Positions 1,629-55,561 of a DNA stretch of 64,000 bases are shown here, piece after piece. A model generated the notes under the pieces. That model was not told the origin of the DNA and made no database searches. It saw only the letters and a program-made list of their open reading frames with translations. The stretch comes from a virus. Where the stretch lies: IMG/VR virus record IMGVR_UViG_3300042923_000474, positions 167,725 through 231,724 of that record. One strand, written 5' to 3'. A program made the position numbers and the translations under genes. The number at the start of each line of letters is the position of its first letter. Within the stretch, counting starts at the first letter, position 1.

Positions 1629-2707
1629 TATGCAGGGTCCTTCAGAGTGAGGCTGAAGTCAACCGAAGCCAAGGGCACGTTCGCCGCCGCAAACTCGGTA
1701 CGCGGACGTGTCCAGTTAACGACATCGGCAGTCGTAGTGTTGAAGTTGATGGCGGCAGCGTTGGTGTACTTGGTCCCATCCACGGTCTGAGAAACATCGA
1801 CCACCGGAATCACGGTAGCCGCACGTCGACCGCCCATCAGGATACCTGCAGCCAAGACCTTGCCAGTGATACCGGCCATGTCCAACTTGAAGTTCACCGC
1901 ACTGTTGGCGTCAGTCAACTTCACTGTACCAGCAGGCTTGGACCATGGACCACCTGAAGCGGTGTTGACCAGTGGTTGGTTCAAAATGGCCTGGGTAGCA
2001 GCAGCATCTTTGTTGGCACCTGCAACACTTGTAACGAGCACAGGAGCACGTTTGATGTTGACAGGACCCAGGCGCTTGGTGACACCTACGCCATCGTCCA
2101 CAATAGCGTAAATGTCGCGGACTTTGAACTGGTCAGGACTGACCTTGGCCACACCCGCATTGGTCCACGGCGTGGCGTTCTTGAACATCACCCCGGTGGT
2201 CAGCAGACGGTTGTTGTAGATGTCGTTATAGAGCGGCCCAAAGGTGGTCGACATTACCAACTCCGCCACCAGTATTCCATCCTTGTAGTAGCGGACACGG
2301 TCGGTTGGGAAGTCGATCTCCAGTTCGAGGAAGACCTCCGGCGTACCTGTACCGCCCAGCAGCCCCAAGGACGGGTGGTTGGTCACCATCGGGTCGTTCA
2401 ATGCCTGGGTAGACTGAAAGCGAAACAGCCCGTAGCCGGCGTTGTTGACGTTGCGGAAGCGAGCACCGAAGATGTAGACCTTGTTCTTCTCGAAAGTGAG
2501 TGATTGGATAAGTTGGCCACGGTACTCGCCCGCGCCATTGCCTTCCGCACCGCACATCCAACCCGCTTCATCAATGCAGGGTGGCTGGGTCCAGCTACCC
2601 GAGGTGTTATAGATGCCACCCACAATGGGGGCTAGGCCGAAACTCTTGAGATCGGCACCCCCGATAGAGCGCATGTTGTCAAAACAAAGAGCATACAAGA
2701 GACTCAT
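1628..2707 (-). CDS. Probable virion protein with lectin/LamG-like sandwich
   Basis: 359 residues. The start at 2707 is chosen over an in-frame one at 2731 because AAGGAGG lies 6 bp upstream of it. It is paralogous to 579-1628 and 3821-4954. A sandwich-type core includes ELEIDFPTDRVRYYKDGIL, followed by LGPVNIKRAPVLV and a C-terminal beta-rich domain ending SLTLKDPA. It is coupled to the downstream gene by a TAATG overlap. Probably part of the tail-fibre or receptor-binding apparatus (inference). Confidence 0.88.
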   Translation of the reverse strand: MSLLYALCFDNMRSIGGADLKSFGLAPIVGGIYNTSGSWTQPPCIDEAGWMCGAEGNGAGEYRGQLIQSLTFEKNKVYIFGARFRNVNNAGYGLFRFQSTQALNDPMVTNHPSLGLLGGTGTPEVFLELEIDFPTDRVRYYKDGILVAELVMSTTFGPLYNDIYNNRLLTTGVMFKNATPWTNAGVAKVSPDQFKVRDIYAIVDDGVGVTKRLGPVNIKRAPVLVTSVAGANKDAAATQAILNQPLVNTASGGPWSKPAGTVKLTDANSAVNFKLDMAGITGKVLAAGILMGGRRAATVIPVVDVSQTVDGTKYTNAAAINFNTTTADVVNWTRPRTEFAAANVPLASVDFSLTLKDPA

Positions 2708-2717
2708 GGTACCCTCC

Positions 2718-3809
2718 TTACACGGAACCAAGACTGAGAGAGGTAAAGACCGTCGACAGAGCAGGCTTGCGGCCCACTGTGAGCGTGTAGGTACCCTTGA
2801 AGAGTGGAGAGGTAGCCTTTGCCTGCAGTGTCAACGTAAACGTCGTCAGGCTGTCCTGAGCCACTACAGGGAGGTCTTCCAGATCGTAGATCGTGAACGG
2901 GATGCCGGTGATCGCATTGATCGTTGGCAGAATGTGGTGAACCGTGGTGTCCTCCAAAACCTTGACAGTTGTGGGAAACGTGAAAGCCGCCATGCCTGAC
3001 AAATCAACACGGTTGTAGAACACATTCTTACTGATCGTACTCTGCCCATCCACGCTCGGGTAAGTCACGCCGCGCTTGATCTCACGAATACTGGATGGAC
3101 CGGTATTGAGCGATGCACTGTCGGCAAAGGTTACCGAGGCAGGTGTCAGGGTGCGGCCCAAGATAGTTCCCAATTGGGTCACAAAGGCCGCTTTGGCAAA
3201 GTACGCGGGCAGTGCAGCCAACGTAGCTGGCCAGGACAACCCCACAAGCTCCCAATCGCGGTCTGAGGGGCACATCCACCCAACGTTGACCTGAGTCCCC
3301 GGTTGGAAGTACAAAGAGTTCTCAGAGGCTTCCAGGGTGCATGGGCCATCTTGGGGGATGGGTGTACTCTTAAAGTCCGAAGCACTCAGTGCCGTACCGA
3401 AGGTAGCATTGAATCGTGGGATCACCTGATCGGTTGTGGTCATGACCTTGTCGTACTTCAGGGTATCGAGGTTACGATCCCGGACGATCTCCTTTAAAGG
3501 GAATCGGTAGTAGGCAAAGTCCAACGAACCACGGTAACCCGAGCTGGGCTTGAAAGTCACCGGCAGTTTGGCATTGAACCGATCTTTGACAGCAGCCGAT
3601 GGCACACCGAATGTCAGGTCAGCCAAGACGAAGCTTTTCTGCCACGTCGAGTTGATCGAGTTAACGATGTGCTGATTGACTTCTACTGTGAATGGATCTG
3701 TGGGGGGAGAGGACAAGACCGCGTAAGCCGCGATCTGATCCAGTTTCAACAACGCGGGTTGCTGTAAAACAGCATACGCCGCAATCTGATCAACTTTTAC
3801 AGTTGCCAT
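2718..3809 (-). CDS. Probable virion protein, two tandem A domains
   Basis: 363 residues. It opens with two copies of DQIAAYAVL (about residues 7-15 and 24-32), then carries two copies of domain A. The first has FAYYRFPLKEI and a later ASDF. The second has VFYNRVDLSGM and a closing SPLFKGTYTL strand. Domain B is absent. AAGGTG lies upstream of the ATG. The N-terminal duplication parallels the partial gene at 1-568, and may be an attachment peptide used repeatedly (inference). Confidence 0.88.
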   Translation of the reverse strand: MATVKVDQIAAYAVLQQPALLKLDQIAAYAVLSSPPTDPFTVEVNQHIVNSINSTWQKSFVLADLTFGVPSAAVKDRFNAKLPVTFKPSSGYRGSLDFAYYRFPLKEIVRDRNLDTLKYDKVMTTTDQVIPRFNATFGTALSASDFKSTPIPQDGPCTLEASENSLYFQPGTQVNVGWMCPSDRDWELVGLSWPATLAALPAYFAKAAFVTQLGTILGRTLTPASVTFADSASLNTGPSSIREIKRGVTYPSVDGQSTISKNVFYNRVDLSGMAAFTFPTTVKVLEDTTVHHILPTINAITGIPFTIYDLEDLPVVAQDSLTTFTLTLQAKATSPLFKGTYTLTVGRKPALSTVFTSLSLGSV

Positions 3810-3820
3810 CGACGTTCACC

Positions 3821-4954
3821 TTAGAGAGCGGCCGCCAACTTGACGGTGTATTTATCAAGTTCCGTTTTGGCAGGGGTGGCAGCAATCGACTTGAACGCCA
3901 TGCGACGCGCCAGACCAGTGGCCTGAAGTGCACGGGTGTAGTCGAACGTTTGCTGGAAGGTTGCCGTTTGGCTCTGGTCACTAGCACCGCTCTTGAGCAG
4001 GTCCAGCTTCAGGTTGGACGAGCCACTGGTAGCCAGCGCGTCTACCTGAACCATCAATGCCTTCACAGTATCCGTGTCGCTGATACCCGCAGTATCGAGG
4101 GTGACCACACCACTGGCATCGTTGTCGGTGACAGACACCGTGGTTGGTGTACCGACAGCCGCGTTGAAAGTGGCGTGTGCGTCGTTCAGGGATTCGACAA
4201 CAGTCTTGCCTGCCACGTCGGGCGTCCATGTGGGGGCATTGACGGCTTTGACCGGAAGGGACTTAAGACGCACAGGGCCAACCTTCTTGACCATATCGTT
4301 GGCTGCAATCTCGGACAGGAGAATGTCTTTGAAGGCATCGTCACGATACAGCTCAGCGTAACCGCCACCGTTCGTGGTCTGAACACCCACCCAGAACGCA
4401 ACCAGCTTAACCCCAGATGCGGCTAGGCGGGCGGAGATGGACAGGGTTTTCAGGTAGACGTTGTCGCGATAAACGGTGACTTCGCCGGTGACACGATCCA
4501 CGGTGATCTCAAAATAGTGACCAGTGCCGACTGTGTTTGGTGTGGCCCAGTCTGCCGCCATCACAATGGAAAGTGGGGCCAACGAATCAGAAAGACGCAG
4601 ACCAGCACTTGAGACCAGTGCGCCAGAGGTTCGAGCCTCGTGGGTCACACGAAAACCGAACGACAGCATCGAGGTGCCAGCCTGCAGCCCGGCTTCAGCG
4701 TTTTCCAACATGGCCTCAACGGTGGCCAAGTAGGTGCCGCCAGAGTAGTTGGACAGATTACGGGCACGTACCACCAATGCATCTGGGTCGGTGCCTTTGC
4801 GGATGCCAAAGGTTGGACCAGTAGGCGCGTAGGCGTAAGGGTCGGTATACCCCACCGTCATTCGACTGCCTTCGATCTGACCAACATAAGGGGTGTTGGT
4901 GTTGAAGAGACCGGTGGGGGCCTTGGTAAAACCGTAGGCTTCAATAATGCGCAT
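3821..4954 (-). CDS. Probable virion protein with lectin/LamG-like sandwich
   Basis: 377 residues, the longest of the three sandwich paralogues. YFEITVDRVTGEVTVYRDN is the strand-turn-strand signature shared with 579-1628 and 1628-2707. It is followed by VGPVRLKSLPVKAV and an Ala/Thr-rich C-terminal beta domain. AGGAG lies upstream of the ATG at 4954. It sits 15 bp after the 4970-5293 gene. The presence of three diverged copies fits a host-range or decoration function, but no specific ligand can be inferred. Confidence 0.88.
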   Translation of the reverse strand: MRIIEAYGFTKAPTGLFNTNTPYVGQIEGSRMTVGYTDPYAYAPTGPTFGIRKGTDPDALVVRARNLSNYSGGTYLATVEAMLENAEAGLQAGTSMLSFGFRVTHEARTSGALVSSAGLRLSDSLAPLSIVMAADWATPNTVGTGHYFEITVDRVTGEVTVYRDNVYLKTLSISARLAASGVKLVAFWVGVQTTNGGGYAELYRDDAFKDILLSEIAANDMVKKVGPVRLKSLPVKAVNAPTWTPDVAGKTVVESLNDAHATFNAAVGTPTTVSVTDNDASGVVTLDTAGISDTDTVKALMVQVDALATSGSSNLKLDLLKSGASDQSQTATFQQTFDYTRALQATGLARRMAFKSIAATPAKTELDKYTVKLAAAL

Positions 4955-4969
4955 GCTGAACTCCTAGGC

Positions 4970-5293
4970 TTATCGGCCGTAGTGCATGTACAAGCGGCGG
5001 CTGTCCTGACCTTCCAGATCCTGAAGGCGGATACCCACCACACGCTTGAACAAAGGGTTGGTCGGCAACATGTCGTCGTTATCACCTACATAGATGATCT
5101 CGGCGCCTTCGAGGGAGGTCAGGTCGGTACCGGTGGTAACCCACTTGCCCTGATCCTCGGTGGGGTCGTACTGACCCAGTGCGGCCGACAGCGTTGTAAG
5201 TTTGTCTTCCGGGATGGGGCCTAACTCCAGCTCATTCAAGAATTCCTCGAATGGGGCGAAGTCAACGCGGAAGAAGTTGGGCAAAGTTTGCAT
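4970..5293 (-). CDS. Probable virion protein, stand-alone domain B
   Basis: 107 residues matching only the C-terminal half (domain B) of the 255-297-residue paralogues upstream. It shows the block GAEIIYVGDNDDMLPTNPLFK and the closing RRLYMHYGR strand, equivalent to FYLHFN or YFHYN in siblings. The start lies 2 bp after the stop of 5296-5793, which encodes domain A alone, and a GGAG precedes the ATG. Together the two ORFs are 272 residues, the size of one intact sibling. This is a split copy in two reading frames, probably co-translated. Confidence 0.85.
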   Translation of the reverse strand: MQTLPNFFRVDFAPFEEFLNELELGPIPEDKLTTLSAALGQYDPTEDQGKWVTTGTDLTSLEGAEIIYVGDNDDMLPTNPLFKRVVGIRLQDLEGQDSRRLYMHYGR

Positions 5294-5295
5294 GG

Positions 5296-5793
5296 TTAAC
5301 TCCAGTCGAAGTAGGGTTCGGGAATGGCTGCAGAGATCGACGGAATACCGCCACTGAACAACGTGCAGCTACCTTTCCAGAAGATACCCGTAGATTTGGC
5401 GGTCAATGGGATTTTGAATGTCCCGTCACCGTTATCGATCAGGGCCGCATCTTCCACATCGTCGGCATCAAACAACACGCCAAACGTTTTGAGGATGTAG
5501 GGGAAGCAGTCGTAAACACGGGCTGCGCCTGTCAGTACATTGGTCTGAGCAGTGCCCGCACTGGCGCCCAAGACGGCCAAGTCCACACGGTTGTACTTAA
5601 ACGACCGGTAGTCCTTATACGTTGGGTTGGTCCCTGTTGCCGTGAGTTTGATTTTGGTGTCAAACCCTTCTGGATCATTGGCCAGCGCCGAGGGCGGCGA
5701 GAGGGTCCAGAGGTTGGCAGCAGAATAAGCGAGGGCATGATTGGCCTGCAGCTGAATAAGCAGGCTGATCTTGGAACCTTGTTTTAAGTCCAT
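5296..5793 (-). CDS. Probable virion protein, stand-alone domain A
   Basis: 165 residues corresponding to domain A of the cluster family: FKYNRVDLAVL, then a helical stretch, GVLFDADDVEDA, and TGIFWKGSCTLF. It ends at the usual domain boundary. Domain B follows as a separate ORF (4970-5293) in a different frame after a 2 bp gap. AGGTGAG precedes the ATG. This is either a real gene fission or an old frameshift kept functional by translational coupling. Confidence 0.85.
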   Translation of the reverse strand: MDLKQGSKISLLIQLQANHALAYSAANLWTLSPPSALANDPEGFDTKIKLTATGTNPTYKDYRSFKYNRVDLAVLGASAGTAQTNVLTGAARVYDCFPYILKTFGVLFDADDVEDAALIDNGDGTFKIPLTAKSTGIFWKGSCTLFSGGIPSISAAIPEPYFDWS

Positions 5794-5800
5794 GGCTCAC

Positions 5801-6694
5801 CTACACCTTGTAGTGAAGCAAGAATTTACCCACGAACCAACCACCCGCCGCAGGTGGAGTAATGACCACCACATTGTTGTAGTCTGTGGAGTTTGCCTCG
5901 GGCACGTTTACGTTGGGTAGGGCATACTTGATGCAGCGAGCATCTTGCAGGCCACCCTCAGTCGCAGCCGGAACATAAGCGTTGAGCTTACGGCCAGCCA
6001 CCAGGCTCATGTACGACACCAAGTCTTTCGCCTGCGCAGTGCTGGGCAAAACCTGAAGCGTGGTCAAAGACTGCAGCAGTGCACTGAACTTGGAGAAGTC
6101 CGTCCCATAGGTCATGAAGTCGGCCATGGGTTTCGGGTTACCGCCCGGCGCTACTCCACTAACCAAGGTCAGCAGGAGCGGGGTGGTGGCAGGCACCTGT
6201 TCAGACACAGGCTTTTTGGTAGCCTTGCGGTTCCAGCGAAAAGACCCAATCCACGCGGGGTTGTTAGTCGGGAAGTTCCAAATGTAGCCGGTTTGCACCG
6301 TATTGGGAACCACTGCACGGTCCGAGTCCGAGGCGATGAACTTGGTGCCATACTTCTGGTTGATCCAGCGCATCGCCGATTCAATCTTGACGTTGACGCC
6401 GGTCAAGTCGTCAGGCGTGGCGTAGTCGTCGATTACCGGTACGCCTTGTTGGAACAAGACATCCGAAGACAGACGACGGTAGGTGAGCACGGTGGTGGCC
6501 ATGTAGCCGGAACCGGTACGAGGCATCACCGAAATTTGTGTGTTGCGAATCCCCTGACCAGTGATCGCTGCCGGAACACCCAAACGACAGTTATCTGGCG
6601 TGAGTTTGTACGGCAGCTGAGGATTGTCCCGATTGATCAAATCAAAGACCAATTCGGCAGATGTTTTTCGATAGTCTAAGTCCATCTTCTTCAT
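5801..6694 (-). CDS. Probable virion protein, domains A+B
   Basis: 297 residues. The N-terminus has the family opening SAELVFDLINRDNP. Domain A carries VLTYRRLSSDVLF and an IGSFRWN strand. Domain B ends in GKFLLHYKV. The start is uncertain between 6694 and 6685: no good ribosome site precedes 6694, and AAGAAG precedes 6685. It is one of six intact A+B paralogues in tandem. Role in the virion is inferred from clustering and beta-rich content. Confidence 0.86.
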   Translation of the reverse strand: MKKMDLDYRKTSAELVFDLINRDNPQLPYKLTPDNCRLGVPAAITGQGIRNTQISVMPRTGSGYMATTVLTYRRLSSDVLFQQGVPVIDDYATPDDLTGVNVKIESAMRWINQKYGTKFIASDSDRAVVPNTVQTGYIWNFPTNNPAWIGSFRWNRKATKKPVSEQVPATTPLLLTLVSGVAPGGNPKPMADFMTYGTDFSKFSALLQSLTTLQVLPSTAQAKDLVSYMSLVAGRKLNAYVPAATEGGLQDARCIKYALPNVNVPEANSTDYNNVVVITPPAAGGWFVGKFLLHYKV

Positions 6695-6735
6695 CCCAGT
6701 TGGAAGGGGCCGGGGAGTACCCGGCCACTATGCCG

Positions 6736-7620
6736 TCAGTCCGCCGAGTTCGGGTTATCCGGGTCGTTGAAGTGCAGGTAGAAGCGACCAGTGGGTGTGG
6801 TCACGCCGGTACGCAGCTCCAAGCACATCACGTACTTGTACGACTGGTTGGTGGGGAAGACCATGGTGTTCAGACCGCAGAAGATCACTTTGGCGCCGTT
6901 GAGCGACCAGGTGTTGCTGCTGTCGGAGTTGTTCCACAGTGTGGCGCCAGGACCCTGATCGAGTGCCTTAAGGGCCGTCACCAGGATGTCAGCATTGGCG
7001 GAAGACAGTACGCCTTCGGCCATGGCCAGCAATTGGTCACGGTAACCTGTCAGGTTCAGCGGGTAGGCGTACAGCAGTGCCGAGGTCTGAGTCGCCGGAT
7101 CGGCCACTGGGTAGTTCAAACCATTCAACGCCTTGACCGTGGTCAGGGTGTCGATGTTTGCACCACCTTGAACGACATCAAAGGACAACTGACCCAGCCA
7201 CAGAGGCGAAGCGTCCTTGGCCTTGATGGTCACGGTACCGGCACCTTGGCCATCCAGCACCACAGGCTCGCTGAGAATATCCTGCGGACCCAGCACGAGG
7301 CCGAAGTAGTACAGGATGTTCGACAACAGGTCGATGGTCGTTGCAGGTTGGTAAACCGGCAGAGGGCGGGTAGGACGGAACTTGGCGAAGTCTGCCAACT
7401 TCAAGCGATCGTATTTAACGGTCGCCTTACCTTCGAAACCAGCGCCTTGTTTCGGCGTTACCTTGGCGTAGGTGTTTTTGGTGGTAGTACCCTCCATCCA
7501 CGTCCCGGCGATCGGCTTGGGATCGGACCAGGTGAGGTTGGCTGCAGTGAACTGCGTGGTACTGTTGGCCGCATTCAAATAGTTGAAGAGGGCCTGCTTG
7601 GAATCTACGAAAACAGACAT
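6736..7620 (-). CDS. Probable virion protein, domains A+B
   Basis: 294 residues. Domain A shows VKYDRLKLADF and SPLWLGQLSFDV. The inter-domain linker is LNGLNYP, the same linker at which the stand-alone A genes stop. Domain B ends GRFYLHFNDPD. AGGAGG precedes the ATG at 7620, one of the stronger ribosome sites in the cluster. It is flanked by paralogues on both sides with gaps of 12 and 41 bp. Confidence 0.88.
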   Translation of the reverse strand: MSVFVDSKQALFNYLNAANSTTQFTAANLTWSDPKPIAGTWMEGTTTKNTYAKVTPKQGAGFEGKATVKYDRLKLADFAKFRPTRPLPVYQPATTIDLLSNILYYFGLVLGPQDILSEPVVLDGQGAGTVTIKAKDASPLWLGQLSFDVVQGGANIDTLTTVKALNGLNYPVADPATQTSALLYAYPLNLTGYRDQLLAMAEGVLSSANADILVTALKALDQGPGATLWNNSDSSNTWSLNGAKVIFCGLNTMVFPTNQSYKYVMCLELRTGVTTPTGRFYLHFNDPDNPNSAD

Positions 7621-7632
7621 GGCTGCCTCCTC

Positions 7633-8520
7633 TTAAAGGTTGAAGTACAGAATCCACTTGCCTGCGAGGCGTGGGTTGCTGGCGTCGGTGACCGTGAGGA
7701 TCTTCGCGTAGGCAAAACCTGGCTTGTTCGCCTCGGGGTGTATGGCGCTCGGTAGCGCCACCGCGGAGAACGTGCCGTTGGACATGTTCCACGGAGCTGT
7801 ATCGGCATTGTAGGTGCCCACAGCAATCGGCCAACCCGTCAAGCGAGTGATCTCGGCAATTACGCCGCCCTGACCACTGAGGACAACCGTGTTGCTAGCG
7901 GTCCAGCCTTGGGCCAGTGCGAACTCAGTGAAGTCCAGACCTGCAAAGACAAACTCAGGACGCAGACTGCGATCTGGCTTGGCCACGAAGTCGTTACCGC
8001 CTGGCCATTGGGCGCCATCCAGTTCAGTCACGGTCAGAATGTCGATACCGACTTGCTGCAGGCCACGGTTCCAGGTGACGGTGAAGCTACCCACGTAGGC
8101 CAGGTTATCGGCAGTGGCCGTCCAAACGCGTGCGGCACCGCTGTTGGTAGAGTTCCAGACGCTGCCCGTGATGCCGGACACTGTCAGGTTCACGCCGTAC
8201 AGTTGGTTGACGTAACCGATGGCCTGGGCCAGGGTCATGGAGGCGCCATCGTTCAGCCAGCGAGTGAATGCGATGTTGTTACCACGGAACAGGCTGGTCA
8301 GATCGCGGCGACGATACAGAACTTCCAGCACGCCTCGGTACTTGCTGGAGGACTTGGCCGTGATCTTGAGCTTGGTATTGCGACCGAAACTGTCAGCGGC
8401 AACAACCACGGGTTTACCGAAGATGAAGTCGGTGGTATTGATGGGCCATGGCAGCGTCGGGTTATCCGCGTTGATCTGCGCGATGGCCTCTTCGAGAGGA
8501 CTGCCTGTGAGAATTGGCAT
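7633..8520 (-). CDS. Probable virion protein, domains A+B
   Basis: 295 residues. Domain A carries VLYRRRDLTSLF, then ATADNLAYVGSFTV and the linker TELDGAQWPG. Domain B has AGLDFTEFALAQGW and ends GKWILYFNL. AGGT lies 9 bp before the ATG. It is part of the tandem A+B paralogue run. The two halves evolve at visibly different rates, with the A-domain Y-R-x-L strand and the terminal aromatic strand being best kept. Confidence 0.88.
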   Translation of the reverse strand: MPILTGSPLEEAIAQINADNPTLPWPINTTDFIFGKPVVVAADSFGRNTKLKITAKSSSKYRGVLEVLYRRRDLTSLFRGNNIAFTRWLNDGASMTLAQAIGYVNQLYGVNLTVSGITGSVWNSTNSGAARVWTATADNLAYVGSFTVTWNRGLQQVGIDILTVTELDGAQWPGGNDFVAKPDRSLRPEFVFAGLDFTEFALAQGWTASNTVVLSGQGGVIAEITRLTGWPIAVGTYNADTAPWNMSNGTFSAVALPSAIHPEANKPGFAYAKILTVTDASNPRLAGKWILYFNL

Positions 8521-8530
8521 GTGCTTTTAC

Positions 8531-9298
8531 CTAGGCTGGATTGTAGTGGAAGTACATGGCGCCTTGTAAAAGGCCGCTCTGCACAGTCGACTGAATAACG
8601 ACGCGTTTGAACACAGGGTTGGCATCAGGTACTTCTGCCGTTGCCTTGTCCACAACTTTGCCTTTAACCCAGTCAGGGATACCCATGGCACGAGTCACTG
8701 TTTGAACGAGCGCCCAATCGGAATACTCGCCCTTGGCAGTTGGCTTCAATGCATCCTGGATACCAGAGAAGTCCGCACCCCACGTCCACATCCGGCTGGA
8801 TTGTCGGTTGGTATTGTTGGGGTGTTTGAAGATGTCCAGATCGGTCTTGCCAATCATCGAGTCCAGCCACGAGGGACCGAACGACAGATTGAGGTCCAGA
8901 CCACCGAACCACTGCAACGAGGTCTCTGCAATCTCGATGCGCGAAGAGATCGCCTCACCATCACCCAGCACAGGTGGGGTGTACTCTTCGAAGTCTTCGG
9001 GGTTGATGTCGAGGCCAAACTTGTTAGCCAGGCCCAGCACAATCATTTCACGGTTCATGGCTTCCAGAGAACGGAAGTCAAAAGACGTCACGTAGTCTGC
9101 CAGATTCATGCGGTCATAGTAGACATCGACCTCACCGTAGTAACCGCGCCCCGGAATACCGGAGATGGTCACCAGTGTGTTGCGGTCGTGCTCTGTGGTC
9201 GGTTGGGGTACCGAGAACGAGAGCCGCTTTTCCGTGAACTCCTTGGGTGGAGTGAACATGTCGTTTAGAACGACAAACATCCGTTCGGCGTTAGCCAT
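8531..9298 (-). CDS. Probable virion protein, domains A+B (short)
   Basis: 255 residues, the shortest intact A+B copy. Domain A has VYYDRMNLADYV, LDINPEDFEEY and SLQWFGGLDLNL. Domain B ends GAMYFHYNPA. GGGGG precedes the ATG. The domain linker is shorter than in siblings, which accounts for most of the length difference. Same inferred virion role as its neighbours. Confidence 0.87.
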   Translation of the reverse strand: MANAERMFVVLNDMFTPPKEFTEKRLSFSVPQPTTEHDRNTLVTISGIPGRGYYGEVDVYYDRMNLADYVTSFDFRSLEAMNREMIVLGLANKFGLDINPEDFEEYTPPVLGDGEAISSRIEIAETSLQWFGGLDLNLSFGPSWLDSMIGKTDLDIFKHPNNTNRQSSRMWTWGADFSGIQDALKPTAKGEYSDWALVQTVTRAMGIPDWVKGKVVDKATAEVPDANPVFKRVVIQSTVQSGLLQGAMYFHYNPA

Positions 9299-9308
9299 GG
9301 TTCACCCC

Positions 9309-10151
9309 CTATGCCAGGTCTGGATCGGGTTCATTGAAGTGAAGCGTCAGCTCACCTGTCAGACCCAAGCAGTTGGCATCCACCAGCATGACCTTAATGA
9401 AGCGGTCGTACTTCGGGTTGGCTTCATTCGGATGCTCGGCGGAAATACCCACCATGCGAATCGTTGCACCGGCCAGACTGAAACGGCTGATGCCTTCGAT
9501 CTTCCAATCGTCACCTGTCTGCGTTTTAAGCAGAGGACCCAACACGTTCACCGGGGCATCACCCACCACGATGTCCTTGAGCTGCTCGTAGGAGGTCGTG
9601 AAGTCACGCCAGTACGAATAGATCTGGGCATACGGTCGAGTGGTGGTCGCCGATGGGTAGCGCAGACCGTTGAGACGGGTCACCTTGAGGTAGTCCGCCA
9701 ACTGGTAGCCACCCGGACGGGTACCCACCGAAACAGTGCCAGTCCATGCCAAGCTGGTAGGCAGTGCCTCCAACTCAACCACGCCGCCTTGAGCTTTCTC
9801 TTCGTCAGTCAGCGCACGGATCAGTACATCTTTATCCGTGAGCAGTGTGCCGTAGCGTTTGTTCATGGCCGCAATGATGTCACTGGTGCTTTGCGGTTCT
9901 TTGACCGGCACCAACAAGGTCACTTGCGCAGCCAAGTCGGACAATGGGTTGCGATGGTAGCGGAACGTCTCGGAACCGGAGTACGCTGTCTCTTGGTTTT
10001 TGGCAGTGAGCACGATCGTCGTATTGAACTGCCCTACCGGAGTAATCGCGATAGGTGCTTCGAAGATGTATTCACTGGCCACCAAGTCAAGCTTGTTCAG
10101 CCGGTTGATCGATTCCACCATCACATCCAAAGAGGGTTTATAAAGCGACAT
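9309..10151 (-). CDS. Probable virion protein, domains A+B
   Basis: 280 residues. Domain A carries FRYHRNPLSDL, a long helix and TSLAWTGTVSVG, followed by the linker RLNGLRYP. Domain B ends GELTLHFNEPD, closely resembling the 6736-7620 copy (YLHFNDPD), so these two are probably nearest relatives. AAAGGG lies before the ATG at 10151. Confidence 0.88.
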   Translation of the reverse strand: MSLYKPSLDVMVESINRLNKLDLVASEYIFEAPIAITPVGQFNTTIVLTAKNQETAYSGSETFRYHRNPLSDLAAQVTLLVPVKEPQSTSDIIAAMNKRYGTLLTDKDVLIRALTDEEKAQGGVVELEALPTSLAWTGTVSVGTRPGGYQLADYLKVTRLNGLRYPSATTTRPYAQIYSYWRDFTTSYEQLKDIVVGDAPVNVLGPLLKTQTGDDWKIEGISRFSLAGATIRMVGISAEHPNEANPKYDRFIKVMLVDANCLGLTGELTLHFNEPDPDLA

Positions 10152-10162
10152 AATCGTGCCCT

Positions 10163-10996
10163 TTAGGAAGTGAGGTTATAGTGGAAGTAGGCGATACCCG
10201 AGTAGTCCATGGTTTGCACGTTGGCAATATCCTTGATCACCTGAACAAGCACTCGATCGTAGTCCTTGTTAGCTTCCGGTACCTGCGCCGTACTGTAGTC
10301 GAACATGGGGTTGTTCCATGCCACGGGCCAGTTCGAGTAACCGAACGAAGCCATCAGTGTCCGCATGGCGTTCCCGTCGTTAACGATGTTGTAGAACGGG
10401 TGCTTGCGAACTTTGGCGTAATGTTCCGACCAGTCTTCACTGTAAGTGAACAACGTGATCGGTCGCTTGTTCAGCGTGTCCAGCGTTTGACCCGGATGCA
10501 ACATGACATCGAGATCACGCATGACGACAACCTCAGACAGCAGAGGACGACGTCGGGTAAAGCGAATAACAAACTGGCCGATGTAGGACAATGAAGTGGT
10601 AAGGGCTACGAGGGGGATGTTGACCTCTTCGTTTTCGCCCAACCAGCTGTAGTCAACCTGCTCGAAGTCATCGACATCCAACTGGATGCCCAACTCTTGG
10701 CCGATATACGGCAACATCGAATGCAGGTTTCCGTTACTCAGCCCATTGATCCGGGGACGGATATCACCAAACGCGCTTGTAAGGTCCATCCGCTCGTACT
10801 CAACGGGGACCATGCCTTCATAGGTCGTATCGGGAATCGGCACAACGACACTACGGACCAGGGTAGGTAGGGGACCCTGGACAAACTTAGGCGTGGTAAA
10901 AAGCACATCGTCCGGGTTCAACGGGGAGGGAAGGACATTCTGCTGATTGATGAGATCAACTAAAACGTCCCTGCCCTTTCCAGGGACAAGGATCAT
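10163..10996 (-). CDS. Probable virion protein, domains A+B
   Basis: 277 residues. The start at 10996 is chosen over an in-frame ATG at 11053 because AGGAG lies just upstream and the product then opens like its siblings (GRDVLVDLINQQN). Domain A shows VEYERMDLTSAF, LDVDDFEQV and LSYIGQFVIRF. Domain B ends YFHYNLTS. It is the first intact A+B gene of the minus-strand run; the 160 bp upstream holds a terminator and probably its promoter. Confidence 0.88.
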   Translation of the reverse strand: MILVPGKGRDVLVDLINQQNVLPSPLNPDDVLFTTPKFVQGPLPTLVRSVVVPIPDTTYEGMVPVEYERMDLTSAFGDIRPRINGLSNGNLHSMLPYIGQELGIQLDVDDFEQVDYSWLGENEEVNIPLVALTTSLSYIGQFVIRFTRRRPLLSEVVVMRDLDVMLHPGQTLDTLNKRPITLFTYSEDWSEHYAKVRKHPFYNIVNDGNAMRTLMASFGYSNWPVAWNNPMFDYSTAQVPEANKDYDRVLVQVIKDIANVQTMDYSGIAYFHYNLTS

Positions 10997-11103
10997 TTTT
11001 CTCTCCTGAAACCGTGATCTGAAGGGAAGGAATGTGTGCCGGATAGGAAACATTCACATAGGATTAGCCCTTGCTGAAATAAGATAGGTAAGGGCATAAA
11101 AGA

Positions 11104-11123
11104 GAGTGGCCTTTCGGCCACTC
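11104..11123 (-). terminator. Terminator after 11157-11720 gene
   Basis: A perfect 8 bp hairpin, GAGTGGCC / GGCCACTC, with a 4-base loop. On the minus strand it is followed by TCTCTTTTATGCC, the TTATGCC end found after most terminators in this window (complement at 11093-11099). It separates the single-domain gene 11157-11720 from the A+B run. Confidence 0.85.
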
Positions 11124-11156
11124 CCAGTGAGTCCCTTCGTTCACGCACGTCAGGTC

Positions 11157-11720
11157 TTACTCGGCCGGCGGGGTTGCCGGAGGAGTTGGGTAGTTCAGAC
11201 CAGACAGAGTGGTCACGGTGATCACGTCGGACAATGGGATGTCTTCAGCGGTCAAGGTCACGCTCAGGGATTCCAGGAAGACGTAGGAGTCTGCGTCAGC
11301 CGGGATCTGGATGATCTTGGTTTCGTTGGGAGTACCTTCCCAATCACCGATGTCGCCGTCGATGTAGTCGTCGGCGGTCAGGTTGATGCCGAGTGCAGTG
11401 TTGATCTCGTCGATCAGGTCTGCGAACTTGGCAGCGTCACCTACCGGGATCTCCAGCGCGCCAGTGATGCCAGCGGCGGCGATGAAGCCGTCGAGAGCCA
11501 GGCGGTTGTAGTTCACGGCCACTTCACCGGTATAACCGGAGTTAGGCAGAGCCGACACTTCCAACGTGGTGTTGGCCACTGGGTTCTGACCAGTAGCGGC
11601 TTGAGGCACGCCCAGACCCATTACGGTGCTGGAGATGGTCTTGCCAGGGTTGTCGAAGTTGATGAGATCGAAAATGATCTCTTTTGGAGCTTTCTTGAAG
11701 TCACTGACATGGAGGGCCAT
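11157..11720 (-). CDS. Probable virion protein, stand-alone domain A
   Basis: 187 residues. The start at 11720 (not 11777) fits AAAGGTG upstream and the sibling-like opening PKEIIFDLINFDNP. It is domain A only: VNYNRLALDGFI, GINLTADDYIDG and DSYVFLESLSVTL. It stops at LSGLNYP plus a short TPPATPPAE tail, exactly at the A/B linker of the two-domain siblings. It is separated from the run by its own terminator, so it is probably made at a different level; possibly an abundant small structural protein (inference). Confidence 0.87.
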   Translation of the reverse strand: MALHVSDFKKAPKEIIFDLINFDNPGKTISSTVMGLGVPQAATGQNPVANTTLEVSALPNSGYTGEVAVNYNRLALDGFIAAAGITGALEIPVGDAAKFADLIDEINTALGINLTADDYIDGDIGDWEGTPNETKIIQIPADADSYVFLESLSVTLTAEDIPLSDVITVTTLSGLNYPTPPATPPAE

Positions 11721-11817
11721 GGGGACACCTTTTGGTTGCTGCGTGATGGAAAAAGGCCCCTTAGTAAAGGACCACATATCATAGTAAAGTTATAGACGAC
11801 CGCCTAGGGGCATTTAA

Positions 11818-16018: not shown

Positions 16019-16058
16019 GGCATAATCCCCCACCCGAAGGTGGGGGAGCACTTATGCC
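16019..16058. terminator. Bidirectional terminator with paired GGCATAA/TTATGCC arms
   Basis: Hairpin CCCCCACC-cgaa-GGTGGGGG (16027-16046) between convergent genes. It is flanked by GGCATAA on the left and TTATGCC on the right, so each strand reads hairpin then TTATGCC. On the minus strand the motif includes the stop codon of 16052-16564. Confidence 0.9.
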
Positions 16059-16564
16059 GTCTGTGGGTAGTTCAAGCCACCCAGACTTGTGACGCGTATT
16101 ACTTCAGACAGTGGGATCAGTTGGGGTTTGATCACTTCTGCCAGAATCTGACCTTTGTAGAAGAGTGAGTCGGGACTTGCTTGGAGCATAACCATTGCTT
16201 CACCGTCGGTCCACTCAATGGGGCCATCGAGCAGGTCGTCGGTTTCCACGTTGAACCCGTACTTAAGTTGCAGTAAGGGAATCAGTTGGTGGATGGTTTG
16301 AGCGTAGGCTTCTAGTTCCAACGTATCCAGATTGATCTGTGAGAACAACCATTCCAGATCCAACTTATCAAAGGTTGAGACAACACTACCCGTCCAACGC
16401 TTTTGATCTAGCGATGTAATGGTAACGGCGGTATCACCCACCATGTCTGGGTTGTCGTTGATCCTGGGATCGCCTACATACAGCAGGTCGTAGGGAATCT
16501 CATAGTCACTCGCTACAAAGATCAAGTCGAGCAGAATTTCCTTTTGGGGCCTTAATGTCGACAT
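16052..16564 (-). CDS. Probable virion protein, stand-alone domain A, isolated
   Basis: 170 residues, domain A only, closest in layout to 11157-11720. It opens [18 protein letters not shown], has [10 protein letters not shown] and [12 protein letters not shown], and stops at [10 protein letters not shown], the A/B linker. The start at 16564 has GAGGAT upstream; an in-frame start at 16606 lacks a site. It is the only family member found away from the 1-11.7 kb cluster, between two plus-strand operons with its own divergent promoter region and terminator. Confidence 0.87.
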
Positions 16565-16650
16565 GCGTGTATCCTCTGTGTGCGCATACCATTCTTCAAC
16601 TCCCACACCCTAGGGACAATCTATCAGACCACTCAATCTCTGGAGCCACT

Positions 16651-23776: not shown

Positions 23777-25120
23777 ATGAAAGAGCCAATCGGCCTCGGC
23801 CAGTTGAACAAATTGCAACGTCTGATCAAGCGTTTGCTGGAACACGGCATCCCGAAAGATGACCGTACCGGTGTGGGTACTCTGAGTGAGTTCGGCCACA
23901 TCGAACGTTACAACTTGGAGGAAGGCCATCCTCATGAGTCTGCCAAGTTCACCCCGTTCAAGATCAACGTGGCTGAACTGCTGTGGATCATCTCCGGCAG
24001 CACTCGCCTGAAGTTCCTCAAGGAGTACGGTTGCCACGTGTGGGACGAATGGGTTAAGCCTGGCACTGAAGTGTGGGGTAAGACCTACACGTACGCTGAG
24101 CGCTTGGACATTCTGAACAAGCGTGTGGAAAGCGGCAAGATCCCAGAAGCCGACAAAGATCACTACGTCGATACCTGGCTGAGTGTCAGCAACGGCGCCG
24201 TGATGACGGAAGAAGATGTGGTCAACATGTTGAACCACTTCGAGATCCCAACTCAGGAACTGATCGACGGTGAACTGGGCCCTGTGTACGGTCAGCAGTG
24301 GCGCAACATTGTTGACACTCGCGTGATTGAAGATCATGAGCGCGAGGAGTATGAGGCACGCGGTTACGAAATGATCGGCTCTATGCTGACCATGGAAGAT
24401 CTGTCCGACATGAAGTGCAATGGCAGCAAGACGGTCATGCAGCGTAAGATCGACCAGCTGGCCAATGTGATCGAACAGCTCAAAACCAAGCCAGACGATC
24501 GCGGCATTATCGTCAATGCTTGGCACGTGCCTGATCTGGATCAAATGGCGCTGCGCCCTTGTCACACGCTGTTCCAATTCGAAACCACTCGTCGTCCTTG
24601 GGATGAGGTGTTCTCTGAGATTCTTCAGGAAGACCACTACGAGGAATTCGACAGCGTCGTTGTTGGCATGTCTTCGGACAGTAAGGGCGGTGAAGATTGG
24701 ATCGAGGCACAGAAGCCTGGCGGTGGGTGGCGTCACCCAGACTACTACAAGACCGGTTATGCGTTTGCCGAACTTAAGGGTCTGTCCACTCGCAAGCTGA
24801 ACTGCCTGCTGTACATGCGTTCGAACGACAGCTTCTTGGGTCGTCCGTTCAACGTGTCTCAGTACGCACTGCTGACCCGCATGGTTGCGCAAGTGGTGAA
24901 CATGAACCCTGGTGAGTTTATCCTCGTCAACGGTGATGTGCACCTTTACAACTCGCACATTGAGCAGGCCAAGGAGCTGTTGAAACAAGACGGTACCTTG
25001 CCACTGCCTTGGGTGAAGATCAACCCAGAAGTTCTGACCATCGACGGTTTCCAGGTCAGCGACTTTGAGCTTTTAAATTACAAGCATGGGCCACGCATTG
25101 GCGCCCCCGTAGCTGTATAA
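23777..25120 (+). CDS. thyA: Thymidylate synthase, enlarged
   Basis: 447 residues against about 265-290 usual. Methylates dUMP to dTMP with methylene-tetrahydrofolate. Present are DDRTGVGTLSEFGH (Arg30), NVAELLWIISGST, GELGPVYGQQWRN, the nucleophile Cys262 in ALRPCHTLFQF (Arg where Pro is usual), DSFLGRPFNVSQYAL with Asn359 that selects dUMP over dCMP, and NGDVHLYNSHIEQ. Extra segments lie at about 98-163, 180-222 and 273-335, the last directly after the catalytic strand. AAGGA precedes the ATG. Retained catalytic residues argue for activity. Confidence 0.94.
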   Translation: MKEPIGLGQLNKLQRLIKRLLEHGIPKDDRTGVGTLSEFGHIERYNLEEGHPHESAKFTPFKINVAELLWIISGSTRLKFLKEYGCHVWDEWVKPGTEVWGKTYTYAERLDILNKRVESGKIPEADKDHYVDTWLSVSNGAVMTEEDVVNMLNHFEIPTQELIDGELGPVYGQQWRNIVDTRVIEDHEREEYEARGYEMIGSMLTMEDLSDMKCNGSKTVMQRKIDQLANVIEQLKTKPDDRGIIVNAWHVPDLDQMALRPCHTLFQFETTRRPWDEVFSEILQEDHYEEFDSVVVGMSSDSKGGEDWIEAQKPGGGWRHPDYYKTGYAFAELKGLSTRKLNCLLYMRSNDSFLGRPFNVSQYALLTRMVAQVVNMNPGEFILVNGDVHLYNSHIEQAKELLKQDGTLPLPWVKINPEVLTIDGFQVSDFELLNYKHGPRIGAPVAV

Positions 25121-36332: not shown

Positions 36333-37160
36333 ATGGATAAATCATCTGAGGAGAACGAAATCGTTCTCCCTTGGAGCGTGGCCTGTACGTTGTTCCAGTA
36401 CCAGGTCGTGAACAAAGCGCTTAACCAAGGTAAGGCACTGTCTGATGTGATGGACATGTTGGACCGCGGCAAAGCTGGCGAGATGGTCGAGGAACTGAAG
36501 GTCTGGATGGACGAGTTGGTTACAGAGGCGGGCGATGAACCAATCATCCGTTACGGGCGTAGTGGTGATCCGAACGGGATCGAATACTCGGTGCGTGAGC
36601 ACCCAGCTGGTCTGTCCCTACTCACCAAGGATCTGCGGAGCCACAACTGGAATAGGTCTGAACCTACCCAGGAAGGCGGGTTGATGGTTGGTCCTGGTTC
36701 TCCGTTATATGGTCGTCGGATCATGCGTGATCCAAAAGAACTGCTGGCCAGTTTCCCACCTGAGATGATCGATCAGATGGGCGATGAACTAGCGGCCTCT
36801 TACGCGGGTGAGGCACCAGAGATCAACGGGGTAATGACCCCCAATGGTCTTTATCAGCCAACTTCGGTTGATAAGCTGACCGATCAAGAGATCCACAATC
36901 TGGGCTTGAAGTATGTCATCTATCCGGCTGGACAGGTGCCAGAAAATGAGCGGGAAAATCTTCAGCACTGGCTGGATAACCATGCGATTGGTAAGGGGAA
37001 GGTATCCTGGAACGCTTCCAATATTCCCAAGGACGACATGAAAAAGCTTCGCAATGGCGAAATGCCTATTCGTGCGGTGCCTGGCATTGAGCTGAAAATA
37101 ACGGTTCCCACCGGTGCGGGAATGTTTTCATCTCAATCGCGTGAAGCAGATAAACGTTAA
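36333..37160 (+). CDS. Unknown 275-residue protein
   Basis: No family recognised. The N-terminal 70 residues are helical and acidic (DVMDMLDRGKAGEMVEELK). The middle contains GLMVGPGSPLYGRRIMRDP; the C-terminal half has LTDQEIHNLGLKYVIYPAG. Two bp after the previous stop. Confidence 0.87.
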   Translation: MDKSSEENEIVLPWSVACTLFQYQVVNKALNQGKALSDVMDMLDRGKAGEMVEELKVWMDELVTEAGDEPIIRYGRSGDPNGIEYSVREHPAGLSLLTKDLRSHNWNRSEPTQEGGLMVGPGSPLYGRRIMRDPKELLASFPPEMIDQMGDELAASYAGEAPEINGVMTPNGLYQPTSVDKLTDQEIHNLGLKYVIYPAGQVPENERENLQHWLDNHAIGKGKVSWNASNIPKDDMKKLRNGEMPIRAVPGIELKITVPTGAGMFSSQSREADKR

Positions 37161-40786: not shown

Positions 40787-41296
40787 ATGCCAAAACAATC
40801 CAAAATCTTCTACACATCCTGCATGGGGCAGGGGAGTGGAGAGTTCACCTTAGTTCAGGACTACACTGGACGAGGTGTTTACATCGGCAAGCGTAAGCCA
40901 GCTGACGAAAAAGAGCTGGCTCTCTACCATGAGCAATTGCGAGCCGACCACATGATCGAGCCACCTACCCAGTGTTGGGTCTGGATCATGCGCCCCATTG
41001 CGACGGGGGACCTTATCAATGAGGGTTCCACTATCGCACGAACAATGTACGACGCCATCGGTAGTCACATGGATGCCGACTGGAACAAGCGTAAGGCCAT
41101 TCCCTGCGAACAGCTGTGTTATGTAGGGAGCGACTTTGCGGGGAGATTAGATAAGGTGCGTCCGTTACTGAACGCATTTGATCGGGCAATCATTCGTGAG
41201 CAGTTAGCCAAACAACTGCTTTCCAATCTACCAGTTCATAGCCGGGGCATGTTCGACCGCTATCAACTGCAAAATCTCAGAGACCTAAGGGGGTAA
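40787..41296 (+). CDS. Unknown 169-residue protein
   Basis: No family recognised. No strong ribosome site before the ATG (GATATCATG). Contains GEFTLVQDYTGRGVYIGKRK near the N-terminus, a Trp-rich strand CWVWIMRP, and a helical C-terminus. Two bp before the frameshift gene. Confidence 0.83.
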   Translation: MPKQSKIFYTSCMGQGSGEFTLVQDYTGRGVYIGKRKPADEKELALYHEQLRADHMIEPPTQCWVWIMRPIATGDLINEGSTIARTMYDAIGSHMDADWNKRKAIPCEQLCYVGSDFAGRLDKVRPLLNAFDRAIIREQLAKQLLSNLPVHSRGMFDRYQLQNLRDLRG

Positions 41297-41298
41297 CT

Positions 41299-42372
41299 GT
41301 GAAGCAAGCAGAATATCTGAATCTCATGCTGGGCGTTAAGTACCAGTTGGAGTCGGACGACATCAACCTGATCATTGCGATCGCGGCTATCTTGCGTGAT
41401 CGCAACATCAAGGTGTCGTTTGCATCGGCCCCGCTGTTCGATGAACTGAACGGCGATGAGTTCCGCAGTGAGCGTGCGCTGATCTACAAGATGGTCACTC
41501 AGGGTTTCCACTTCTGGGAAGTTACTCAGATGCTGGGCGGCATGGGTTCTGCATGGCATGCGATCCAGTACCTGCGCGAAGTCATGAATAGTAATGGCGG
41601 TACACCGTCGCTGCGTAAAGTGGCCATGGTCTTCGTCAGCGAGTGGCCGGTGCCAATGCCACCACCTGTGTCGGAATCCGACATGGCGCAGCCTGAGCGT
41701 CAGATCACGCCGGTTGAAGGCTACAAGGGCTGGTTGGTTACCGGCAAGATGGAACTCGAAGATGCAGACCACACCAAGCGCACCTTCGATCTGAACACCC
41801 AACCTGAAGGCGAAGAGGCGGCTCAAGAGCCAGCGGTTGTTCAGATTGCGCGCATGTTGCGTGTGACCTGGAATGCCGACAAAGGTGTCGTTGAACCTGA
41901 GCGTCTCGAAAAGATTGCCATGTTGTTGGGTCACATGCTGCTGTCTGAGCGTGAACACTTCATGGGCAAGCTGAAAGAAGCACAATCGGCAGCCAAACCT
42001 GAAGCACCTCTGATCTGGCCGAAGAACAAAGACCACTGGATCTTTGACCCTCGCCTGTCTGCGCTGAATGCTCCGATGCCACTCAACAACGACTTCCCTG
42101 CGCGTCAGCGTCTGACAGAAGTTGCTCGTGAAGCCGCTCGCTTTGCAGTATCGCGTGCCAGCGGTATGGGCACCAGCCGTGTGTTCAACATCGAAGGCTT
42201 TGTTGAGAACGTTGCCATCGGCCTGTTCGGTGACGGTACCAACGAGCACAACTTCGATTTCCGCACGCTGGTGTTTGACAAAGAAGTTGCAGCCGAAGCG
42301 CCGAAACCTGCTGAACCTGCTCCAGCACCTGCACCGGTTGAAACCGAAGCTCCAGCTGAAGTGGGAAAGTAG
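41299..42372 (+). CDS. Unknown protein, zero-frame product of a frameshift gene
   Basis: 357 residues from a GTG with AGGGGG upstream. The globular part (1-330) is helical and of unknown family, with VTQMLGGMGSAWHAIQYLRE and WIFDPRLSALNAPMPLNN. The zero-frame end is acidic and Pro/Ala-rich (EAPKPAEPAPAPAPVETE) and stops at TAG 42370-42372, directly after GTG GGA AAG. A -1 slip there continues for 80 codons (see separate entry). Confidence 0.9.
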   Translation: MKQAEYLNLMLGVKYQLESDDINLIIAIAAILRDRNIKVSFASAPLFDELNGDEFRSERALIYKMVTQGFHFWEVTQMLGGMGSAWHAIQYLREVMNSNGGTPSLRKVAMVFVSEWPVPMPPPVSESDMAQPERQITPVEGYKGWLVTGKMELEDADHTKRTFDLNTQPEGEEAAQEPAVVQIARMLRVTWNADKGVVEPERLEKIAMLLGHMLLSEREHFMGKLKEAQSAAKPEAPLIWPKNKDHWIFDPRLSALNAPMPLNNDFPARQRLTEVAREAARFAVSRASGMGTSRVFNIEGFVENVAIGLFGDGTNEHNFDFRTLVFDKEVAAEAPKPAEPAPAPAPVETEAPAEVGK

Positions 42373-42611
42373 AAGCCGGCGTTGCGCCACAGCTTGCTTC
42401 CAAGTTAGCAGCGGCCGGCTCGTTTCCTGTAGCACCGCAAGCCCCGGCAGAAGAAACTGTTCTGCCAGTCAGTGAACGTGGGGCACCTGCCAGCACGCCA
42501 TTGATCGAAAGACTGCAATCCCAAAAGACTGCAGCCAAACCCGTAGCAAAGAAACCTGCTGCAAAACCACGTCAGCCACGTAAACCGGCAGACAAAAAAC
42601 CTACCAAGTAA
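41299..42611 (+). CDS. -1 frameshift extended product
   Basis: Predicted 437-residue product: the 357 zero-frame residues, then 80 codons in the -1 frame ending at TAA 42609-42611. The extension starts VEAGVAPQLASKLAAAGSFP and ends in a very basic AAKPVAKKPAAKPRQPRK stretch, changing the acidic tail into a basic one. Composition continues the Ala/Pro-rich style across the junction, and no start with a ribosome site precedes the extension. This supports one gene read through a shift, though a sequencing indel would look similar. Confidence 0.75.
42363..42420 (+). promoter_or_regulatory. Programmed -1 frameshift signal
   Basis: The slippery heptamer G GGA AAG (42363-42369) is in the correct phase (X XXY YYZ) and is followed immediately by the zero-frame stop TAG. 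Four bases after the heptamer a stem forms: AGCCGGC+GTTGC (42374-42385) pairs with GCAGC+GCCGGCT (42408-42420), 12 pairs with one bulged G and a 22-base loop. Heptamer, spacing and stem all fit known -1 signals. Confidence 0.82.
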
Positions 42612-42618
42612 CACATCT

Positions 42619-42651
42619 GGCCTGCTCCCTGCCGGGAGTGGGCCTTATGCC
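42619..42651 (+). terminator. Terminator ending in TTATGCC
   Basis: GGCCTGCTCCC / GGGAGTGGGCC, 11 pairs including G-U, then TTATGCC and, 4 bp later, the GGAGAG ribosome site of the next gene. Confidence 0.87.
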
Positions 42652-54641: not shown

Positions 54642-54989
54642 ATGTTCGTTATGAGATTTACCCCAATCCCAGATGACCATGCTACAGTTTTGTTCCACGT
54701 ATCCGAGATAGATGAGGAGCTTCTTCAAGTTGGGTGTTCACTCAACATGGATGAGTATCTTGCTTGGGTTTTCGTGGAGCTGGGTTTTCCTGTCTTCACC
54801 CCACCCTGGATGGCAGAGCCCGACCTTCCCTTTAAAGCTAGACTGGTTCGTCAATATCAATTGGCGGATATCCGAGAACTGTTGGTAAAGGTTCTGAGTC
54901 AAGCTGGATGGAATGGTCAAGAGCTGTTGGTGTGCGTTCAAGGCCGGGCTTATTGCTCGGTTAGTTTTTTCAAGGAGCGTGCTGGATGA
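54642..54989 (+). CDS. Unknown protein, first of tandem cluster
   Basis: 115 residues. No clear ribosome site before ATG 54642; 54651 is an alternative. It may be a short relative of the downstream paralogues (an opening strand, then helices DEYLAWVFVELGFP and LADIRELLVKVLSQAG). Overlaps the next gene by 4 bp. Confidence 0.82.
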   Translation: MFVMRFTPIPDDHATVLFHVSEIDEELLQVGCSLNMDEYLAWVFVELGFPVFTPPWMAEPDLPFKARLVRQYQLADIRELLVKVLSQAGWNGQELLVCVQGRAYCSVSFFKERAG

Positions 54990-55561
54990 ACTTTATATTT
55001 GACCTCGGTGAGCAACTGGCTGAGCTACCTGCAAGTGTTCCGCAGGGAGACTTTCAAGCGACCCTTGGTCTGCATATGCTGGAACAGCGACACTGGCTGG
55101 ACTTCATATTGCAGGATGCACGTGAGATTCTGAAAGAGAAACAATTTGGCGGACTGAACGATCGTGCGATTCGCATGGCGCGCATTCTTCGTCAACTCGC
55201 ATCCGATCATGGGGATGATGATCTGGCGAAGTTCTTTAAGCTGGCTATTGAAGAGGCGGATAAAGAACCTGTGATCGATGTGGATGGTCAAGGCCTCATG
55301 GCTGTGGCGGCACTCAATCCACATGCGCAATACATGGAAGACTTGGACGACCTGCTCGACGGTATCTTTTATGAGATCGGAGCTGAGGTCCAGGACTTCG
55401 TCAACAGCTTCTACTCCAAGGGTGACTTGTGGTCGGTGGATGCAACCCCGAACACCAAGCACATGGTCTTTACTTTCTGCTGCCGACGTTCTGTTGTGGA
55501 AGCTGCCGTGCTTGCATCAGGCGGTAACATGCGGAGCTTCATGCAGCACCTGATTGGATAA
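54986..55561 (+). CDS. Tandem-cluster paralogue 1
   Basis: 191 residues. Opens MNFIFDLGEQLAELPASVPQ, the strand plus D-L-x-E-x-L-x-E/D pattern shared by the 54.9-60.2 kb run. Long helical middle with DDLDDLLDGIFYEIGAEVQDF region, then a late strand MVFTFCCRRSVVEAAV. No named family. ATGA junction upstream. Confidence 0.85.
   Translation: MNFIFDLGEQLAELPASVPQGDFQATLGLHMLEQRHWLDFILQDAREILKEKQFGGLNDRAIRMARILRQLASDHGDDDLAKFFKLAIEEADKEPVIDVDGQGLMAVAALNPHAQYMEDLDDLLDGIFYEIGAEVQDFVNSFYSKGDLWSVDATPNTKHMVFTFCCRRSVVEAAVLASGGNMRSFMQHLIG

Follow-up and report, generated by a model that had tools for sequence, protein, structure and literature searches.

A gene of a nucleus-forming jumbo phage, located at positions 41299-42372 of the 64-kb stretch of DNA analysed here (hereafter, the window), very probably carries a programmed -1 ribosomal frameshift site that operates by tandem tRNA slippage, as judged from its own sequence and from that of related phages. 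The 3' end of the gene reads GCT GAA GTG GGA AAG TAG in the 0 frame, and a correctly phased X XXY YYZ heptamer, G_GGA_AAG, therefore adjoins the stop codon, as a sequence-only reading of this DNA had reported (Table 1). This heptamer is among those that are highly shift-prone in E. coli (PMC5009743). Also as that reading had described, a slip of one base backwards opens 80 more codons. They run on to a TAA.

In the proposed mechanism, the ribosome would arrive just before the stop with tRNA-Gly on GGA and tRNA-Lys on AAG, and a hairpin 4 nt downstream would hold it up in that position. Both tRNAs could then slip one base back and re-pair with GGG and AAA. The majority of ribosomes would terminate and release a 357-aa protein with an acidic tail, while a minority would read on to produce a 437-aa form to which 80 residues with a Lys/Arg/Pro/Ala-rich end have been added. 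According to the sequence-only reading, the shift exchanges an acidic tail for a basic one. On this point it has to be corrected: the codons of the acidic stretch precede the heptamer, both products therefore include this stretch, and the shift adds the basic end.

Table 1. Positions in the window of the frameshift gene, its predicted products and the surrounding signals
Feature	Position	Strand	Remark
Shine-Dalgarno-like AAGGGGG	41287-41293	+	ahead of the GTG start; seen in the sequence
0-frame gene, GTG start, 357 aa	41299-42372	+	clade-restricted orphan protein
Acidic Pro/Ala/Glu tail, net charge -4, common to both products	42277-42369	+	
TGA closing the -1 frame upstream, 6 nt 5' of the heptamer	42357-42359	+	equal distance in G001
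G_GGA_AAG slippery heptamer (GGGAAAG)	42363-42369	+	phase conserved in G001
0-frame stop TAG, directly 3' of the heptamer	42370-42372	+	TAA in G001
Predicted downstream stimulatory hairpin, 12 pairs, one bulge, inner stem-loop, spacer 4 nt	42374-42420	+	
-1 frame extension, 80 codons and TAA (42609-42611)	42369-42611	+	predicted fusion product of 437 aa
Lys/Arg/Pro/Ala-rich basic end, net charge +10 over 30 residues (the last 30)	42519-42608	+	
11-pair hairpin, 7 nt past the -1 frame stop	42619-42644	+	equivalent in all four genomes compared

Within the window, the arrangement is singular. GGGAAAG is found on the + strand at this one position. There are 147 ORFs that are 100 aa or longer, and just three of them combine an X XXY YYZ heptamer no more than 30 nt from the stop with a -1 extension that spans 60 codons or more; among these three, the heptamer touches the stop only in gene 41299-42372. 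An antisense open frame of 390 codons (41263-42435, - strand) spans the whole of the frameshift gene.

The phage and its relatives

The IMG/VR record from which the window comes (G000) is 231.7 kb long, and a close clade of related records was gathered by DNA polymerase searches. Polymerase identity to G000 is 94% for G001 (IMG/VR 3300011774_000001, an independently assembled relative), 75% for G002, 72% for G003 (a 10.9-kb fragment) and 68% for G004. The nuclear shell protein ChmA (phrog_4795) is present in G000, G001, G002 and G004 (E 1e-67 or better), and G000 additionally encodes a PhuZ tubulin (phrog_4733, E 7.5e-36), the divergent family B DNA polymerase of phiKZ-like phages (divDNApol, PF20286), an NAD-dependent DNA ligase and thymidylate genes. 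The presence of PhuZ, the divergent polymerase, the nuclear shell protein and these other genes identifies G000 as a nucleus-forming jumbo phage (Chimallivirus group), and its clade as a group of such phages that bear ChmA and PhuZ.

Several other genes of the window have features of their own. The thymidylate synthase (23777-25120, 447 aa) is longer than usual and matches Pfam in two separate stretches, which suggests an insertion. On the - strand, 579-11777 and 16052-16606 encode proteins mostly of ~180-380 aa with recurring motifs (e.g. LNGLNYP), apparently a paralogous family. At 36333-37160, 63 residues show a weak PHROG match (4.6e-05) to an RNA polymerase beta subunit family.

The probable recoding site and its extension are conserved in an independent assembly

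Relatives of the frameshift gene were found in G001 (60-61% protein identity), G002 (E 5e-72) and G004 (E 1e-28), with identities to the window protein of 60%, 41% and 29%, respectively, in a four-way alignment. A search with the junction pattern yielded 34 stretches, of which the one in G001 was taken up. Between G000 and G001, the junction GCTGAAGTGGGAAAGTA is identical across 17 bases within an otherwise divergent tail, and G001 keeps the heptamer, its phase, the adjoining stop (TAA for TAG) and, 6 nt away, the upstream stop of the -1 frame. The site is common to these two genomes only. Beyond it, the -1 frame of G001 is open for 75 codons.

Selection on the extension was examined by counting dN/dS between G000 and G001 with the Nei-Gojobori method. 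For the extension read in the -1 frame the ratio is 0.28, the value also obtained for the main gene (0.28), while the two remaining frames of the same DNA yield 1.5 and 2.1 and are interrupted by stops; dS is ~1, and no stop has entered the 75-80 codons of the extension. By these counts, the -1 frame is the only one in which the extension evolves like a coding sequence. The programmed frameshift first proposed from the window is thus strongly supported by comparison with a relative of 61% protein identity, in which the heptamer, its phase, the adjoining stop and the coding constraint on the -1 frame are all kept. Two other ways past the stop were considered and rejected: for stop-codon readthrough, the 0 frame closes 11 codons past TAG, and for +1 slippage, the +1 frame closes at 42473, with no protein-level constraint in either frame.

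The extension might also be seen as the decaying remnant of a longer gene, with a heptamer that is there by chance and slippage that is mere noise, a view to which the complete absence of the basic end from G004 and the tolerance of the region to deletions in G002 lend something. It is nonetheless highly improbable, as purifying selection in the -1 frame equals that in the main frame, the codons have remained stop-free in both genomes at the dS given above, and neither the heptamer nor the 17-base context around it has changed.

Constraint at the protein level would equally fit a small gene that is independent and starts by itself, or re-initiation after the stop, with no frameshift at all, for constraint alone is silent on how translation enters the frame. 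What makes this very improbable is the beginning of the extension. The first ATG, GTG or TTG of the -1 frame is at codon 47 in G000 and at codon 43 in G001, leaving 46 and 42 codons, respectively, with no in-frame start; the first TTG has no Shine-Dalgarno-like sequence before it and is preceded by the conserved block AEETxLPVSERGAPASTP. Lacking an early start codon, independent initiation cannot make this conserved first part, and it would also leave unexplained the conserved, in-phase heptamer that adjoins the stop. The absence of an early start, combined with the presence of the heptamer, leaves frameshifting as the only simple route into the extension.

A sequencing or assembly error, by which a false indel would split one continuous gene, is an explanation to which we assign almost no weight. 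The sister genome G002 does read one continuous frame into a basic end, but what sets it apart is a large deletion along with additional indels rather than one base, and in two independent assemblies, at ~61% protein identity, the frame breaks at an identical base, each having a stop and a phased heptamer there. The sequence-only reading had itself named two outcomes that would count against a frameshift. The first, an indel artefact, was not found, G001 having the same frame break; the second, relatives that lack the heptamer but retain two separate frames, was not found either, G002 having a single one.

One other heptamer of the window deserves mention, a phased T_TTT_TTC (54965-54971) located 15 nt before the stop of gene 54642-54989. 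Its -1 frame comprises 196 codons, which are those of the next gene (54986-55561, with an ATGA overlap), and it is conserved in G001 (L051:13764-14102). Because AAGGAG directly follows this heptamer, ordinary coupled initiation is the likelier reading there.

Predicted hairpins at the slip site and at the gene end

The 12-pair stem that had been noted four bases beyond the heptamer does fold, with one bulged base and at -22 to -24 kcal/mol (arms 42374-42385 and 42408-42420). Among the 48-nt windows of the surrounding 12 kb it falls within the lowest 0.4%, and p = 0.015 relative to shuffles that preserve the -1 frame protein. Conservation in relatives, which had been put forward as a check on both elements, was found for the heptamer but not for the sequence of the stem: a 12-base deletion in G001 takes out part of the stem seen in the window, and a hairpin of different sequence is predicted in its place (spacer 3 nt, p = 0.022 with shuffles preserving the -1 protein). 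Compared with its surrounding 12 kb, the G001 hairpin is in the lowest 2.7% over 36 nt, but over 48 nt it reaches only the lowest 18%, and this weakness over the longer span renders its stimulatory role less certain. The predicted stimulatory structure is accordingly supported more weakly than the heptamer. No Rfam matches were obtained near the frameshift site.

A second hairpin, of 11 pairs (12-13 in G004), is found 7-11 nt past the last stop in G000, G001, G002 and G004, and in G000 and G001 it comes after the stop of the -1 frame, not after that of the 0 frame. It is possibly a terminator or processing signal of the clade. In all four genomes the hairpin is followed by TTATGCC with no T-run (42619-42651 in the window, hairpin included), and one further site of this kind, at G000:97119, has 2 mismatches to GTGGGCCTTATGCC.

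The C-terminus takes three states within the clade

The relatives in G002 and G004 end differently from the frameshift gene. The G002 gene (388 aa) has neither a phased slippery heptamer nor a stop at this place and continues in a single frame into the basic end NAPARKPRTRKPAVQPTAK. Its tail DNA aligns to the -1 extension of the window with a score of 28, the best of 2000 codon shuffles reaching 21, and the alignment is in a different frame at first and in the same frame past indels. From this pattern, we infer that a deletion took the acidic tail and the slip site and that indels restored the basic end to frame, probably in that order. The G004 gene (355 aa) lacks both heptamer and extension, and its acidic tail carries a net charge of -12; since G004 does without a basic end, not every member of the clade needs the long form.

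Across the four genomes, the C-terminus therefore exists as acidic only, as basic in a single frame, and as both by way of frameshifting, which makes the clade a natural case for studying the gain and loss of a recoding site.

A clade-restricted protein of possible tethering function

Searches for the identity of the 357-aa protein gave no Pfam or PHROG match and no sequence relative in the PDB, where a single match at E 1.8 was taken as chance. AlphaFold models reached a pLDDT of 41 with two sequences and 56 with four, and had no structural matches (all E > 1). Nor were relatives detected by tblastn in 50,697 phage records (none significant), in a collection of genome contigs, or by a profile search of 41 other polymerase-related jumbo-phage records, each of these three being a weak negative. 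The protein is an orphan of one nucleus-forming jumbo phage clade.

The same frameshift could in principle belong to a protein of quite different identity, namely a tail assembly chaperone pair of the lambda G/GT type. In such pairs, low-level -1 frameshifting supplies a longer, minor form in a fixed proportion, and G_GGA_AAG is among the heptamers that they use, as in the G/GT pair of the archaeal virus HCTV-5 (PMC5009743). This identity is nevertheless very improbable for the gene described here. Its main product, at 357 aa, resembles no known chaperone family in sequence, having no PHROG or Pfam match, and the gene is located ~9 kb from PhuZ, within the PhuZ-DNA polymerase region, where it is followed not by a long tape-measure gene but by a 426-aa ORF without known function and, on the opposite strand, by the NAD-dependent DNA ligase.

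For the orphan protein, composition and the known behaviour of the heptamer offer some guidance as to function. Both point to the long form as the minor product, and by analogy with lambda gpG/gpGT and T7 10A/10B, this minor extended form is likely to reside within a complex of the major form. The Lys/Arg/Pro/Ala-rich end suggests binding to nucleic acid or to an acidic partner, through which it may tether a complex of the short form. A broader proposal, which we offer tentatively and hold to be rather unlikely in its entirety, is that the orphan exists in the clade in acidic-ended, basic-ended or frameshift-made dual forms, that frameshifting sets the proportion of the long form, and that the basic end tethers the complex to nucleic acid of the phage, either at the phage nucleus or within it; this would be the first recoding switch described in nucleus-forming jumbo phages.

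Comparison with known recoding systems

While the slip mechanism is well known, neither the gene nor its changing tail in related phages is described in the literature searched. In the open-licence literature covered, no report of a -1 frameshift gene in nucleus-forming jumbo phages was found, and the only match for phiKZ together with programmed ribosomal frameshifting concerns two Burkholderia siphoviruses. The site described here adds a well-supported -1 frameshift gene beyond those for tail chaperones and capsid proteins, in nucleus-forming jumbo phages, and it is one that annotation pipelines would end at TAG, missing 80 residues that are under selection.

A close parallel is with phage lambda, whose G/GT itself uses G_GGA_AAG. 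Like the gene described here, lambda gpG/gpGT and the G/GT pairs of other tailed phages rely on -1 frameshifting at a low level, close to where a gene ends, to make a minor, C-terminally extended protein. The present case differs from lambda G/GT in that the protein is a 357-aa orphan outside any chaperone or tape-measure context, the heptamer directly adjoins the stop, and there is a predicted hairpin downstream. In phage T7, 10A is the major capsid protein, whereas no capsid relation was found for the protein studied here. The two are alike in that frameshifting at gene 10A/10B also extends the C-terminus of a fraction of a phage protein (T7 literature cited in PMC5009743).

E. coli dnaX (tau/gamma) and copA(Z) likewise have a slippery heptamer with AAG in the A site, and a downstream hairpin such as the one predicted here. 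In these two genes, which bear heptamer sites of this kind, the shifted frame ends soon and yields a shorter product. Their relation to the present site extends to the heptamers themselves, as A_AAA_AAG and C_CCA_AAG belong to the same series as G_GGA_AAG (PMC5009743). Unlike dnaX and copA(Z), however, the jumbo phage gene would gain a longer product from its shifted frame.
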